Below are positions 52,845 through 57,148 of a stretch of DNA of 64,000 nt, piece by piece. The position numbers were made by a program, and so were the translations under genes. The stretch is from Adhaeribacter swui (GTDB lineage Bacteria; Bacteroidota; Bacteroidia; Cytophagales; Hymenobacteraceae). The notes under the pieces were generated by a model that saw nothing but the letters and a program-made list of their open reading frames with translations, did not search any database and was not told the origin of the DNA. The first letter of the stretch is position 1, and each line of letters begins with the position of its first letter. The DNA lies in contig NZ_CP055156.1 of the NCBI RefSeq assembly GCF_014217805.1, positions 1,928,585-1,992,584 on the forward strand, read 5' to 3'.

Positions 52845-53120
52845 CTAATAATTATTCCCGAGTAGCTTAAAATCAGGTTTAGCCTTTTGCAAAAGCTCCG
52901 GCTTCCATTTCTCCAGAAGTGGCGCTTCGAGCTGGTTTTCGCGGTACTCGTCGGGAGCCATAATGGGGATGCCGCTGATAATGGGGTAGTAACGCTGGCA
53001 GGTGCCGCAGGTAAGTACGCCTTCCAAAATATTTTTGGTGGTATCCTGGGTTATAATCTGCAACGACAAATCTTCTTTGTCGAAAGGGCAGCAAAGTTTC
53101 TGAATGGTTTCGAGTCTCAT
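52845..53120 (-). CDS. Trm112-like zinc-ribbon protein
   Basis: 91 residues. Zinc ligands are visible in KLCCPFDKEDL near the start and in LTCGTCQRYYPIISGIPIMAPDE in the middle, the classic Trm112/UPF0434 arrangement. Eukaryotic and archaeal Trm112 stabilise and activate SAM methyltransferases. The bacterial role is less clear. It is the last gene of the TPP-riboswitch operon, and its ATG overlaps the ThiE-like stop (ATGA). The operon's first gene is a methyltransferase, so a Trm112-methyltransferase partnership is plausible. Confidence 0.85.
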   Translation of the reverse strand: MRLETIQKLCCPFDKEDLSLQIITQDTTKNILEGVLTCGTCQRYYPIISGIPIMAPDEYRENQLEAPLLEKWKPELLQKAKPDFKLLGNNY

Positions 53121-53752
53121 GATTTTTTTAAATTTTTTAATTCCTGCACGTATTTTTTGGTGGTAGCGGCTATGTCGGGGGCGGCCATAATACCCGATAC
53201 TACCGCAATGCCGCTTAAAGGCAAGTCTGCTAACTGATTCAGGTTATCCAGGTAAATGCCCCCGGCGGCAAATAAGGGTAATGTAGTAATAGCGCGCGCT
53301 TGTTGGATAGTATCGAAAGCCACGATTTCGCAGGCACCCGCGGTGGACGAGGGGAAAAGCGAGCAAAACGAAATGTAGTCGAACTGGTTTTCGTCAGCCC
53401 ATTGCACCACGGCTAAATCGTTGGAACAGGTAATGCCTTTGTAAAAGTTTTTGTTAACGGCCTGCTTTATTTCTGCTAAATCTTCCGGGATGCCGTCAAA
53501 ATGAACCCCATCTACTAGCGTGGTTTGCAGCAAAGGCCAGTTGTTATTTACCAGAACCGGTACCTGGTAAGCATGGCACAATACGCAGATAAAATCGATT
53601 TTGGATTCCAGTACATTCTCGGTGTTATATAGCTGCACCAGGTGAATGCCGCTTTTTAAAGCTTGCTCCAGTTTGTTTTGCAGCGTGCCTTCCGCCAGAT
53701 TTGCATCCACGATTAAGTAGATGCCGTTAAATATTTCCGTGTTTTGCGCCAT
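53117..53752 (-). CDS. divergent thiamine-phosphate-synthase-like (ThiE/TenI fold) protein
   Basis: 211 residues with the TIM-barrel order of ThiE/TenI. IYLIVDANL is strand 1, GIHLVQLYNTE stands where ThiE has QLRxK, VDGVHFDGIPEDLAEIK matches the DGVHLGQxD region, and KGITCSND, FDYISFCSLFPSSTAGACEIV, FAAGGI and GIAVVSGI follow. The pyrophosphate-binding Arg/Lys of ThiE appear absent, and a TxTK motif is replaced by SSTAG. So it may not be a standard TMP synthase. It joins directly to the upstream stop and overlaps the Trm112-like gene by four bases. TPP-controlled. Confidence 0.8.
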   Translation of the reverse strand: MAQNTEIFNGIYLIVDANLAEGTLQNKLEQALKSGIHLVQLYNTENVLESKIDFICVLCHAYQVPVLVNNNWPLLQTTLVDGVHFDGIPEDLAEIKQAVNKNFYKGITCSNDLAVVQWADENQFDYISFCSLFPSSTAGACEIVAFDTIQQARAITTLPLFAAGGIYLDNLNQLADLPLSGIAVVSGIMAAPDIAATTKKYVQELKNLKKS

Positions 53753-54808
53753 TTACTTCCAGTTGTTTTGTAAAGCGGTAAAAAAAGCCGCCCAATACGG
53801 GTCTTTTTGCTGGTAAATAAGCGGTTCTTTTTCGCCGGTTGCTTCTAGTATCTGCAATCCTTCGGTTTGGTCCACCATCACGCCAATTACTGTTGCCAGA
53901 ATGTTTTGCTGCGTCAGCGCGGAAATAATCTCGTTTTCCGAACCTTTTTTCACGGTTAGCAGCATGGCTCCGGCACCAATGCAATAGCGCGGGTCCAGCG
54001 AAAAGAGCCGGCATACTTCCTGCTGCACGATATCCACCGGAATTTTAAAATTTTCGATGAGTACTCCGTTGCCGGAAGCCACGGCCATCTCGTAAACGGC
54101 GCCCAATACGCCACCTTCGGTAACGTCGTGCATCGCCGATACTAGGGAGGTTTCCTGGTTAAATTGAGCGGCCAGTAAGGCTTCGGGTAAGGAAGACGTT
54201 TGATAGAATAAGTCGCAGGCTTGCTGGTACACTTCCGTGCCCAGCTTGGCTTTTACTGTTTCCGGAAAGCTCATAGCCAGGATAGCGGTGGAGGAAATAG
54301 CGCATTGCTTGGTCACCAGAATTACATCTCCTACGCGGGCGTTTTTGGAAACCAGCATTTTGCTTTTTTCGCCGACGGTAATAAAGGTGCCACCGCCCGC
54401 AATGGTGGAGTTTTGCCCTTCGATTACGCCGGTGTGCCCACCCGTAATCGCTACTTTTATGTCGGTGCAAAACTGATGAATGTAGTTCCAGTAAGTCTGA
54501 AAGTCGGTAGGGGATAACCAGGGTGGTAGGTTTAAAACAAATTGCCCGAACTGGGGAGCCAATCCGGTAGTAGCCATATCGTTCGCCATTAAGTGCACCG
54601 ATAGCCAGGCTGATTCGGCTAATCCCAGCGAAGGAATCAGGGACAAAGGATCGCTGGTTACCGCCATGGCCTGGTTGTTCGGTAAATCAATAAGGGCCAC
54701 ATCCACCCCAAAGCCTGGTCCGGTACTTACCTCGGTTCGCGCATGCCCCAGCCTGGCGGCAAAGATGTCGTCGAAATCGGATTGGGTTATTTTGCCGAAA
54801 GCCTTCAT
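53753..54808 (-). CDS. AIR-synthase-related protein (PurM/HypE/ThiL-like)
   Basis: 351 residues from the start at 54808 (MKAFGKITQSDFDDIF), which overlaps the methyltransferase stop in an ATGA; a longer frame (to 54907) would overlap it by 100 bases and is rejected. GPGFGVDVALIDL and AVTSDPLSLIP are the nucleotide/Mg region, VAITGGHTG follows, and AMHDVTEGGVLGAVYEMA is the second domain signature. The family uses ATP to phosphorylate or dehydrate substrates (PurM, ThiL, SelD, HypE). In a TPP-controlled operon, ThiL-like action on a thiamine compound is tempting but unproven. Confidence 0.85.
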   Translation of the reverse strand: MKAFGKITQSDFDDIFAARLGHARTEVSTGPGFGVDVALIDLPNNQAMAVTSDPLSLIPSLGLAESAWLSVHLMANDMATTGLAPQFGQFVLNLPPWLSPTDFQTYWNYIHQFCTDIKVAITGGHTGVIEGQNSTIAGGGTFITVGEKSKMLVSKNARVGDVILVTKQCAISSTAILAMSFPETVKAKLGTEVYQQACDLFYQTSSLPEALLAAQFNQETSLVSAMHDVTEGGVLGAVYEMAVASGNGVLIENFKIPVDIVQQEVCRLFSLDPRYCIGAGAMLLTVKKGSENEIISALTQQNILATVIGVMVDQTEGLQILEATGEKEPLIYQQKDPYWAAFFTALQNNWK

Positions 54809-55512
54809 GCAACGTTGTTGAATTTGATGTACAAGCCAAAGAAATCGCCGTAGGGTACGTGCCATTGCTGCACCGGAAACCATTTGGGTAAGCCGGTACA
54901 AGTCCACTGGATGGAGTAGTCGCGGCCTACTAAAGCCTCCTGAATAATTTTAGTTAGTGTGGCCGGGGTGTAAAAAGTAGCAGTCACGTAAAACGGGTTC
55001 TTCCCGAAAGCCTGTTGTATCCGGCGCCGAAAAAACTTGGGAGTATTACGGTTCATCATGCCCATGGCAATGCCGTATTTGCCCACCCGGGCCGCTTCCC
55101 GGATTACCTGCACCGGGTTTTTGTAGTACTCAAAAGTGGTGATAAAAGCCAGGGCATCGAAGGTGTGGTTTTTAAATGGCATGTAATGCGAATCGGCCAG
55201 CACCAGGTCGCCTTTAAATAAATGCAAGGCCTGGCCCAGCATAAACGGGGAAATGTCGCCGCCGGTCGCTTCAATGCCAATCTGGTGCCACCAGCGGGTA
55301 AAGCGCGTGGTGCCGCAGCCAAACTCCAGTAAGGTTTTCACCCGCGGGTCGCCGGAAACCAGTTGCTCCATTACTTTTTTCTGCCACACTTCGGCGCGTT
55401 TGTAGCGGCCTTCGTACCACAGTTCGTAGGTATCGGTGTGGTCGCGGTTAAAGAACCATTCCTGCCGGTTTTGCCAGTTTCTTATTTCGGGGGTGGTGAG
55501 TTGCTTCTCCAT
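54805..55512 (-). CDS. class I SAM-dependent methyltransferase
   Basis: 235 residues. The SAM-binding motif LLEFGCGTTRFTRWW is near residue 60 and GGDISPFMLGQA follows (acid after strand 2). LADSHYMPFKNHTFDALAFITTFEYYKNPVQVIREAARV is the motif II/III part of UbiE-type enzymes. The N-terminal RNWQNRQEWFFNRDHTDTYELWYEGRYKRAE is unusual. First gene after a TPP riboswitch and its terminator. Substrate unknown; it could methylate a thiamine-related metabolite. Coupled to the next gene by ATGA. Confidence 0.87.
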   Translation of the reverse strand: MEKQLTTPEIRNWQNRQEWFFNRDHTDTYELWYEGRYKRAEVWQKKVMEQLVSGDPRVKTLLEFGCGTTRFTRWWHQIGIEATGGDISPFMLGQALHLFKGDLVLADSHYMPFKNHTFDALAFITTFEYYKNPVQVIREAARVGKYGIAMGMMNRNTPKFFRRRIQQAFGKNPFYVTATFYTPATLTKIIQEALVGRDYSIQWTCTGLPKWFPVQQWHVPYGDFFGLYIKFNNVA

Positions 55513-55520
55513 AGGTTATA

Positions 55521-55563
55521 AAATAAAAAACCACAACCCCATTGGTACAATGGAATTGTGGTT
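55521..55563 (-). terminator. riboswitch expression-platform terminator
   Basis: On the minus strand AACCACAA (55563-55556) pairs with TTGTGGTT (55536-55529), with an inner CCATTG/CAATGG helix, and a T-run (TTTTTTATTT) follows. It lies between the TPP aptamer and the methyltransferase start, the usual place for an attenuator. Confidence 0.8.
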
Positions 55564-55589
55564 CAACAATATAGTGGTTCCGGTTTGCG

Positions 55590-55665
55590 GCATTTCTTAC
55601 GCTGGTATTATCCAGTTCAAGTTTACGGGTATAATCTCAGCCTCCAGTCGGAAGCACCCCGATGC
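55590..55665 (-). promoter_or_regulatory. TPP riboswitch (THI-box aptamer)
   Basis: On the minus strand the signature elements occur in order: GCATCGGGGTGC (P1/P2 start), GGAGGCTGAGATTATACCC (the CUGAGA pyrimidine-sensing loop), ACTTGAACTGGATAATACC (P4 side), then CAGCGTAAGAAATGC closing P1 (GCAT with ATGC). The aptamer is about 76 nt, small because the optional P3 extension is short. It binds thiamine pyrophosphate and, with the downstream terminator, should switch the four-gene operon off when TPP is high. Confidence 0.93.
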
Positions 55666-55677
55666 GTGTTATGTGTG

Positions 55678-55707
55678 CAAAGATGGTGTTTTTTTGGTTA
55701 GTTCAAA
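55678..55707 (-). promoter_or_regulatory. candidate Bacteroidota promoter of the TPP-controlled operon
   Basis: On the minus strand a TTTG (55707-55704) and a CATCTTTG (55685-55678, consensus TAnnTTTG) are separated by 18 bases and precede the aptamer by about 12 bases. The -7 box has one mismatch at its first base. Confidence 0.45.
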
Positions 55708-56239: not shown

Positions 56240-57148
56240 TTAAAATTCTTCTGCAATCAATTCTCTATTTACGGCGGCACCGGCCATGGTTCCGGCAGCT
56301 ACGGCACTAGCAACCGAGCGCATGGAAGTGGCATTATCACCGCTGGCGTATACGCCGGAGACGGTGGTTTTCTGCATCATGTCTACTTTGAGCAGGCCTT
56401 GTTCATTTAGTTCACAGCCTAAAGCCTGGGGAATGGTGCTGTGTTGCACAAATGGCGCACGGGCGTAAAAAGCAGTTACCGGAATCTCCGTTTGGTCTTG
56501 TAATACTACGCTCCGGATTTTTCCTTGGTCGTGGGGGAAGCTTTGGATTTCGGTTTCCACAATACCAATGTTGTGTTCTTTTAGTTTGGCGGTTTGCTCG
56601 GCGGTTAAGGTAGATGGGCCGTTTGTGAAAAGCGTTAAATCCGGCGTCCAGTTAGAAATTAACCGGACGTATTCAAAACCGGCATCGCCGTTCCCAAGTA
56701 ACCCGGTTTTCTGGTTCCGAACTTCGTAGCCGTGGCAATAGGGGCAGTGAATCACGGAAATTCCCCAACATTCGGCAAAGCCCGGGATATCTAACATTTG
56801 GTCTTTAATGCCGGTGGCAAAAACCAGCTTTTTAGCGGTAAACTGGTCCTGATTTTCGGTGGTAATAGCAAAACCAGTTGCGGTTTTAACGCCGCTTACC
56901 GCCAAACCATCCTGGAACACCACGGTAGGGTATTGGGCCACCTGCTCCCGGGCCGTCGTCCGGATTTGTTTGGGCGTGTAGCCATCCTGGGTAATAAAGT
57001 TATGCGAATGCGGTGTTTGCTGGTTGCAAGGCTTGCCGCTATCCAACACTAATACGCGTCGCAAAGCGCGACCTAAACTCATAGCGGCGGCCAAACCCGA
57101 GTAGCTGCCGCCCACAATTATAACATCAAAGTTTTTGGCGTCTGTCAT
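56240..57148 (-). CDS. NAD(P)/FAD-dependent oxidoreductase (thioredoxin-reductase-like)
   Basis: 302 residues. The FAD-binding VIIVGGSYSGLAAAMSLGRA is near the start, and the second nucleotide fold is around GLLGNGDAGFEYVRLI. The active-site-like HCPYCHGYE (CPYC) falls where thioredoxin reductase has CATC. VYASGDNATSMRSVASAVAAGTMAG ends the FAD domain. It probably moves electrons from NAD(P)H to a disulfide or small oxidant. It is divergent from a Fur-family gene, with a TGCAAC palindrome between them. Confidence 0.87.
   Translation of the reverse strand: MTDAKNFDVIIVGGSYSGLAAAMSLGRALRRVLVLDSGKPCNQQTPHSHNFITQDGYTPKQIRTTAREQVAQYPTVVFQDGLAVSGVKTATGFAITTENQDQFTAKKLVFATGIKDQMLDIPGFAECWGISVIHCPYCHGYEVRNQKTGLLGNGDAGFEYVRLISNWTPDLTLFTNGPSTLTAEQTAKLKEHNIGIVETEIQSFPHDQGKIRSVVLQDQTEIPVTAFYARAPFVQHSTIPQALGCELNEQGLLKVDMMQKTTVSGVYASGDNATSMRSVASAVAAGTMAGAAVNRELIAEEF

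Follow-up and report, generated by a model that had tools for sequence, protein, structure and literature searches.

A predicted TPP riboswitch precedes a conserved cassette encoding a methyltransferase, Trm112, and PurM-like and ThiE-like proteins

Introduction

What does a thiamine pyrophosphate (TPP) riboswitch control when no gene behind it is a canonical thiamine gene? This question is raised by a locus of Adhaeribacter swui located in a 64,000-nt stretch of its genome (GCF_014217805.1, NZ_CP055156.1, positions 1,928,585–1,992,584; hereafter, the window), where a TPP aptamer lies ahead of four genes encoding an S-adenosylmethionine (SAM) methyltransferase, a protein of the PurM superfamily, a ThiE-like protein, and a Trm112 protein. 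TPP riboswitches usually mark thiamine genes, and for this reason the cassette points to missing vitamin B1 chemistry. As described below, comparison of 34 loci indicates that the four genes are one conserved, co-inherited unit. We propose tentatively, and with a little less than even confidence, that this unit is turned on at low TPP and takes part in the salvage or remodelling of thiamine-related compounds, mainly in bacteria without ThiC.

Results

A predicted TPP riboswitch lies ahead of four adjoining genes

The TPP aptamer was the only Rfam family that reached its gathering score across the whole 64-kb window, and a stem of 17 pairs was found between it and the first start codon (Table 1); an RNA fold shows the same stem. 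Both elements had been claimed in the original prediction, and every feature lay where it had been placed, on the minus strand. Since the window contains about as many terminator-like sites (7) as expected after shuffling (mean 6.2), the case for this terminator is made by the strength and position of the stem. The predicted riboswitch is presumed to bind TPP and to control the expression of the genes. The candidate promoter upstream was judged by eye against the consensus TTTG ... TAnnTTTG, with one mismatch; promoters of this type lie outside the scope of the sigma-70 scan.

In the window, the methyltransferase and PurM-like genes overlap by ATGA, as do the ThiE-like and Trm112 genes, and the PurM-like and ThiE-like genes abut. 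Every domain detected in the products (Methyltransf_11, AIRS and AIRS_C, TMP-TENI, and Trm112p) scored above its Pfam cut-off. As previously claimed, canonical thi genes are absent from the cassette. The accompanying claim that the genes overlap or touch is valid for the window but is not universal, since two of the genes are separated by approximately 200–530 bp at four other loci (L173, L177, L178, and L179).

Table 1. Features of the cassette locus (positions in the window)
Feature	Positions	Strand	Evidence
Candidate Bacteroidota-type promoter	55678..55707	minus	TTTG at 55707-55704, CATCTTTG at 55685-55678
TPP riboswitch aptamer, RF00059	55577..55671	minus	cmscan 65.3 bits, gathering 54.3, E 1.4e-10
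Intrinsic-terminator-like stem, 17 pairs and T tail; presumed expression platform	55528..55564	minus	terminator scan
Class I SAM methyltransferase, 235 aa	54805..55512	minus	PF08241 (Methyltransf_11) 6e-15
PurM/HypE/ThiL/SelD-superfamily protein, 350 aa	53753..54805	minus	PF00586 (AIRS) and PF02769 (AIRS_C)
ThiE-like protein, 211 aa	53117..53752	minus	PF02581 (TMP-TENI) 8.9e-29
Trm112, 91 aa, CPxD-X23-CxxC	52845..53120	minus	PF03966 (Trm112p) 28.9 bits, cut-off 22

The four genes recur together in the same order

Homologous loci were gathered with two query genes, those of the PurM-like protein and the methyltransferase, which yielded 34 loci including that of the window. In the order of A. 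swui, 194 genomes were searched with the PurM-like protein, and 10 of them, not counting that of the window, contained close matches (49–57% identity, E < 1e-100). Among named genomes, a scan with six short peptide patterns from the window's PurM-like protein, which gives a lower bound biased to this sequence, detected at least 13 loci, found in a Chitinophagaceae metagenome-assembled genome (MAG), four Chryseobacterium, four Salegentibacter, Brumimicrobium, Winogradskyella, a Fibrobacter MAG, and a Bacteroidales MAG. The search of the phylum with the methyltransferase matched 13 of 395 genomes at E ≤ 1e-20, once each; the 13 matches were all located within cassettes, and ten were new, forming a second set in addition to the 24 loci of the first.

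The four genes were present at all 34 loci, and at 33 of them they were contiguous and in the same order. Since this contiguous arrangement was reached via two different genes, the gene set goes beyond chance. At the remaining locus (L022/L067, genome G025), the cassette is divided after its second gene between two contigs. Matching inverted repeats were noticed by eye at the contig ends (the end of L022 and L067:1-200), between the PurM-like and ThiE-like genes, which suggests that an insertion element may be present within the G025 cassette. A TPP aptamer was detected upstream at the Rfam cut-off in 32 of the 34 loci (23/24 in the first set and 9/10 in the second), and a sub-threshold match (47.8 bits, E 9e-7) raises the tally to 33. 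The original prediction depended on an Rfam match to the TPP family and on homologous sets keeping the switch and not being split among unrelated operons, and this is the pattern that we observed, with L031 as the one exception as regards the switch.

For the alignments, some predicted starts were shifted to a nearby Met, and gene trees were built from the 33 loci other than that of G025. Compared pairwise, these trees have 14–18 of 30 splits in common, against at most 2 when the labels were shuffled. The flanks of the 34 loci, which are cut by contig ends at several of them, revealed no other gene family beyond 3 of 20 lineage groups. We accordingly rejected the presence of conserved additional cassette genes; the sole family reaching 3 of 20 groups corresponds, by eye, to ABC-type ATPases. 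A plasmid-borne cassette was also rejected, given that the methyltransferase was unmatched at E ≤ 1e-20 in 72,556 plasmid records, as was a viral one, since none was confirmed among viral contigs searched with two short patterns.

Trm112 and the methyltransferase as a putative single enzyme

Of the four cassette proteins, the methyltransferase is conserved most strongly, with a mean pairwise identity of 73% over 33 rows, as compared with 54% for the PurM-like protein, 45% for the ThiE-like protein, and 52% for Trm112; 95 of its columns are invariant in these rows. Its structure model was poor (predicted local distance difference test, pLDDT, 58). When compared with the PDB, its profile reached BUD23 chains and 6f5z_A, which we take to be Trm112 partners; since higher scores were obtained for other methyltransferases (1vlm, 3l8d, and 1ve3), these matches are no more than supportive. 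For the Trm112 profile, 6zxw_H (1.2e-12) and 6f5z_C (4.3e-10), both presumably archaeal Trm112, came out best in the PDB. The Trm112 proteins were aligned from 19 of the 24 loci of the first set, and C11, P12, D14, C38, and C41 are invariant in the 19 rows. These residues (C11-P-F-D14, 23 residues, C38-x-x-C41) conform to the zinc-knuckle signature [C/D]PX[C/D]X19-36CX2C as given in excerpts of a review (PMC5372719). The protein scored 59.7 bits with NCBIfam NF038101, an archaeal equivalog whose cut-off is 77. The two genes are contiguously co-encoded with the rest of the cassette at 33 of the 34 loci. These comparisons lend weight to the pairing of Trm112 with the methyltransferase suggested in the original prediction, and there is a strong case that Trm112 binds and activates the methyltransferase, both acting as one enzyme.

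The ThiE-like protein keeps some ThiE residues and has lost others

The protein had been described as a divergent ThiE, which agrees with its scores in TIGR00693 (cut-off 145.1): 107.4 bits for the window protein and 112.4, 81.5, and 110.1 bits for three relatives, all four below the cut-off. Two control proteins reached 197.7 and 147.2 bits; an extra copy in genome G206 (117.7 bits) was also below. The profile of the cassette protein still finds B. subtilis ThiE at 4.7e-24.

Using the B. subtilis ThiE numbering and the 33 cassette rows without the G025 locus, Q57, H107, and G188 were found in 33/33, Y29 and N92 in 32/33, and S130 was replaced by T in all rows. In contrast, R59, K61, K159, and D112 were lost from every row, and D93 was present in only 5. 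Cys130 and Cys141 of the ThiE-like protein are invariant (33/33). Of two canonical controls in the same alignment, L109 has R59, K61, D93, D112, and K159, but L107 is also without D112 and K159; for this reason, R59, K61, and the cysteines represent the firmer evidence. The residue numbering falls on the expected letters in the alignment. We assume that the residues kept contact the pyrimidine and the thiazole phosphate and that those lost hold the pyrophosphate and Mg. With moderate confidence, this pattern suggests that the ThiE-like protein may still bind a molecule resembling thiamine phosphate, whole or as two halves, and may no longer use hydroxymethylpyrimidine (HMP) pyrophosphate.

The PurM-like protein is neither a typical HypE nor a typical ThiL

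The AIRS and AIRS_C domains and the fold place this protein in the PurM/HypE/ThiL superfamily. An AlphaFold2 model was confident (pLDDT 92), and in a Foldseek search HypE structures were best, followed by ThiL; among the 50 matches listed, template-modelling scores by query length were at most 0.80 for HypE and 0.69 for ThiL. With the curated HypE model TIGR02124 (cut-off 252), the window protein scored 76 bits and three relatives 73–85, whereas a true HypE used as control scored 433. With the ThiL model TIGR01379 (cut-off 184), the values were 63 and 56–72, so that all four proteins scored missed both cut-offs. Thus, of the earlier description as PurM/ThiL-like, the assignment to the PurM superfamily stands, but curated scores and fold search bring the protein no nearer to ThiL than to HypE. 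It has two invariant aspartates, D76 and D227, which is consistent with ATP use. A role in hydrogenase maturation was rejected since the protein is far below the HypE cut-off. In the search of the order, 5 of the 16 PurM matches were weak (26–28% identity), and the one examined, L032, was a HypD-HypE pair.

Most of the surveyed cassette genomes lack ThiC, and their other TPP aptamers mostly lead to TonB proteins

Two TPP aptamers are present in the genome to which the window belongs (6.2 Mb, 3 contigs), the second one before a TonB receptor; the cassette holds the sole TMP-TENI and sole Trm112 matches of this genome, and no ThiC match was found in it. ThiC, TMP-TENI, and ThiD matches were counted in the 24 cassette genomes of the first set. 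ThiC was absent from 21 of the 24. In Salegentibacter G200 it is located within a thi operon, and in G201 matches to ThiC, ThiE, and ThiD are together on one contig. The only ThiC match of G197 (Chryseobacterium kimseyorum) is a short ThiC-family protein (L122:4974-6056, plus strand; 360 aa, 192 bits, PF01964 positions 51-375), whose gene adjoins others that by eye resemble restriction-modification and SIR2-type defence genes. No second TMP-TENI match above the cut-off was detected in 20 of the 24 genomes; partial matches under the cut-off in G055, G196 (two), G198, G200, and G206 were left out of the ThiE count. For ThiD, strong matches (≥ 170 bits) were confined to G200, G201, and G204. Within the order, ThiC was found in 0 of 11 cassette genomes versus 56 of 183 others (one-sided Fisher p 0.021, uncorrected for kinship).

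We examined 17 other TPP-aptamer loci in the cassette genomes, three in G200 and 14 elsewhere. Twelve of the latter lead to a TonB plug-domain protein (Pfam) and two to a PnuT-like transporter. Of the three in G200, one precedes the thi operon and another a TonB receptor. The third, a strong aptamer (74 bits) at L118:8001-8087 (minus strand), has no clear target; the next gene listed on that strand, at a distance of about 1.2 kb, encodes a glycosyltransferase. At L113:5151-6741 (plus strand) and L116:7228-8972 (minus strand), which belong to genomes distant from each other, a PnuT-like transporter lies behind a TPP aptamer under the cut-off and is itself followed by an acyl-CoA-dehydrogenase-like protein, called by eye (a Pfam match below the cut-off in L113 and none in L116).

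In G062, an NMT1/THI5-like protein (PF09084; L126:5566-6459, plus strand) is encoded directly behind a TPP aptamer and a TonB receptor. By eye it has no evident signal peptide, and it is possible that it acts as a cytosolic HMP synthase in this ThiC-less genome. A THI5-like HMP route common to the hosts was rejected, given that only 2 of the 24 genomes match, that of the query and one further genome at 34% identity.

Discussion

A tentative model and the points that weigh against it

For a thiamine-dependent host, the most economical purpose of the cassette would be to salvage or rebuild some compound related to thiamine. The modification, salvage, or repair route put forward in the original prediction is kept, as a proposal, as the most economical reading of the sequences. 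According to this model, when TPP falls the terminator would no longer form and the four proteins would be made. Trm112 and the methyltransferase would function as a single enzyme, a step for which the case is strong. With moderate confidence, the ThiE-like protein would bind a thiamine-like molecule instead of HMP pyrophosphate, and the PurM-like protein, by analogy with HypE, PurM, and ThiL, would phosphorylate or activate a carbonyl or hydroxyl group at the expense of ATP. The remaining steps are speculative: the Trm112–methyltransferase might modify either a precursor of thiamine or a vitamer that has been damaged, the substrate could perhaps be imported via the TonB receptor, whose gene likewise has a TPP aptamer, and the other two enzymes might convert the modified compound to thiamine phosphate.

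Several points weigh against this proposal. The model is weakest on the role of the methyl group; we know of no step in the synthesis or salvage of thiamine that involves methyl transfer, and the conservation of the methyltransferase would also suit a macromolecular target. The scheme is a prediction from sequence, and the functions given to the individual ThiE residues are assumed. L031 is the sole cassette without a detectable aptamer (none upstream at E ≤ 1), and 5 of the 14 second-aptamer loci are below the Rfam cut-off. The anticorrelation with ThiC is modest because 127 of the 183 cassette-free genomes of the order are also without it. The ThiD family PF08543 exceeds its cut-off in 20 of the 24 genomes, of which 17 partial matches (≤ 64 bits) were discounted as probable sugar kinases. 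Finally, strong ThiE and ThiD matches accompany the cassette in G200, G201, and G204, with ThiC too in the first two, and since these genomes keep such matches, the cassette is not a simple replacement.

Alternative explanations

A more specific form of the proposal, which we regard as unlikely, is a novel route to thiamine phosphate without HMP pyrophosphate, in which the methyltransferase–Trm112 pair and the ATP-dependent PurM-like enzyme would activate or rebuild the pyrimidine or thiazole, and the cysteine-bearing ThiE relative would couple them. A methylated leaving group, or a PurM-type cyclodehydration re-forming the thiazole ring of opened thiamine, are examples of the chemistry that this would involve. 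If true, it would give a Trm112 holoenzyme a small-molecule role for which we know of no precedent. It is distinctly unlikely, in our opinion, that the pair acts instead on RNA or protein, like eukaryotic Trm112 partners, and that the ThiE-like and PurM-like proteins provide it with a thiamine-linked cofactor or sensor function. The 95 invariant columns of the methyltransferase and the reach of its profile to BUD23 and 6f5z_A would suit such a target, and excerpts of the Trm112 review concern translation targets (PMC5372719); however, this would leave unexplained the TPP riboswitch and the two small-molecule-type enzymes in each cassette, and the patchy distribution (11/194 and 13/395 genomes) is unlike that of a core translation modification.

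An ordinary replacement of ThiE and ThiL, where the ThiE-like protein joins HMP pyrophosphate with hydroxyethylthiazole phosphate, the PurM-like protein phosphorylates thiamine monophosphate, and the other two proteins are passengers, seems improbable. The cassette TMP-TENI being the only one above the cut-off in 20 of the 24 genomes, the match to B. subtilis ThiE, and the presence of ThiL among the best folds speak in its favour, but R59, K61, K159, and D112 are missing from the 33 rows and D93 from 28, a strong ThiD match is missing from 21 of the 24 genomes, and the supposed passengers occur at 34/34 loci, one of them being the most conserved protein. We consider it similarly improbable, or slightly more so, that the product made at low TPP is a thiamine- or HMP-derived compound other than TPP, for instance an antivitamin or a different cofactor. 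Antivitamin pathways such as that of bacimethrin include methyltransferases, and both the patchiness of the cassette and its coexistence with ThiC, ThiE, and ThiD in G200 and G201 fit this idea; against it, no neighbour family goes beyond 3 of 20 lineage groups, so that no gene for export, resistance, or tailoring is fixed beside it, and ThiC and a strong ThiD match are missing from most hosts. Least probable of all is that the cassette replaces a TPP-requiring metabolic step, in the way that cobalamin riboswitches control B12-independent isozymes. Repression by TPP and a sporadic distribution would be expected for such a bypass, but we know of no member of the four families that replaces a TPP enzyme, and the ThiE ancestry and the residues kept point to thiamine-type ligands.

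Relation to known systems

The riboswitch class is shared with the TPP operons described for Bacteroidota in excerpts of PMC5613172 (thiSEGCHF-tenI, OMthi, and pnuT-tnr3), and the hosts studied here likewise have aptamer-led TonB receptors and, at two loci, PnuT-like transporters. Unlike those operons, the cassette has no canonical thi gene, and the main text of that article, on gut Bacteroidota, does not contain the word methyltransferase. With ThiE/TenI (TIGR00693, PF02581), the cassette protein shares the Pfam family and most of the presumed substrate-pocket residues, but differs by the loss of R59, K61, D112, and K159, by its two invariant cysteines, and by its score under the cut-off. The PurM-like protein has the fold of the HypE/ThiL/PurM/SelD superfamily, with far lower scores in the curated HypE and ThiL models. 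The signature CPxD-X23-CxxC is common to archaeal-type Trm112, and here both putative partners are encoded in one operon; unlike the archaeal proteins, the cassette Trm112 is bacterial and has a C-terminal extension of approximately 30 residues with a conserved PDE.R...E.P....W.

In excerpts of the 2017 review, the function of bacterial Trm112 was given as unknown at that time (PMC5372719). Among the titles and abstract openings listed in searches of the open-access literature, a scope that mostly leaves out subscription papers, no description of the four-gene set was found, and the open-access papers mentioning both thiamine and Trm112 deal, by title, with other subjects. The families and the switch are known; their combination and chemistry appear to be undescribed. 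The abstract openings of PMC10881298 and PMC10470507 report that many aquatic bacteria are unable to make thiamine and that some grow on its breakdown products. The cassette would offer a testable route for the use of such products, as well as a defined candidate pair of bacterial Trm112 and methyltransferase.

Neighbouring genes

In the window, a GNAT gene starts 331 bp downstream of the cassette, and a thioredoxin-reductase-like gene with CPYC (56240-57148, minus strand) is located about 0.57 kb upstream of the aptamer on the same strand; in the flank comparison of the 34 loci, this family was not among the neighbour families that recur at other cassettes. In L031, an amidohydrolase gene (PF01979, dihydroorotase-like by eye; L031:2487-3857, plus strand) lies 24 bp ahead of the cassette. 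An inosine-uridine nucleoside hydrolase (PF01156; L024:6241-7227, plus strand), with no recurrence in other lineages, is encoded 25 bp after Trm112 in L024. At L033:10042-10932 (plus strand), a cobalamin riboswitch (97 bits) was found just after the cassette, ahead of a 189-aa open reading frame that by eye resembles a membrane protein.

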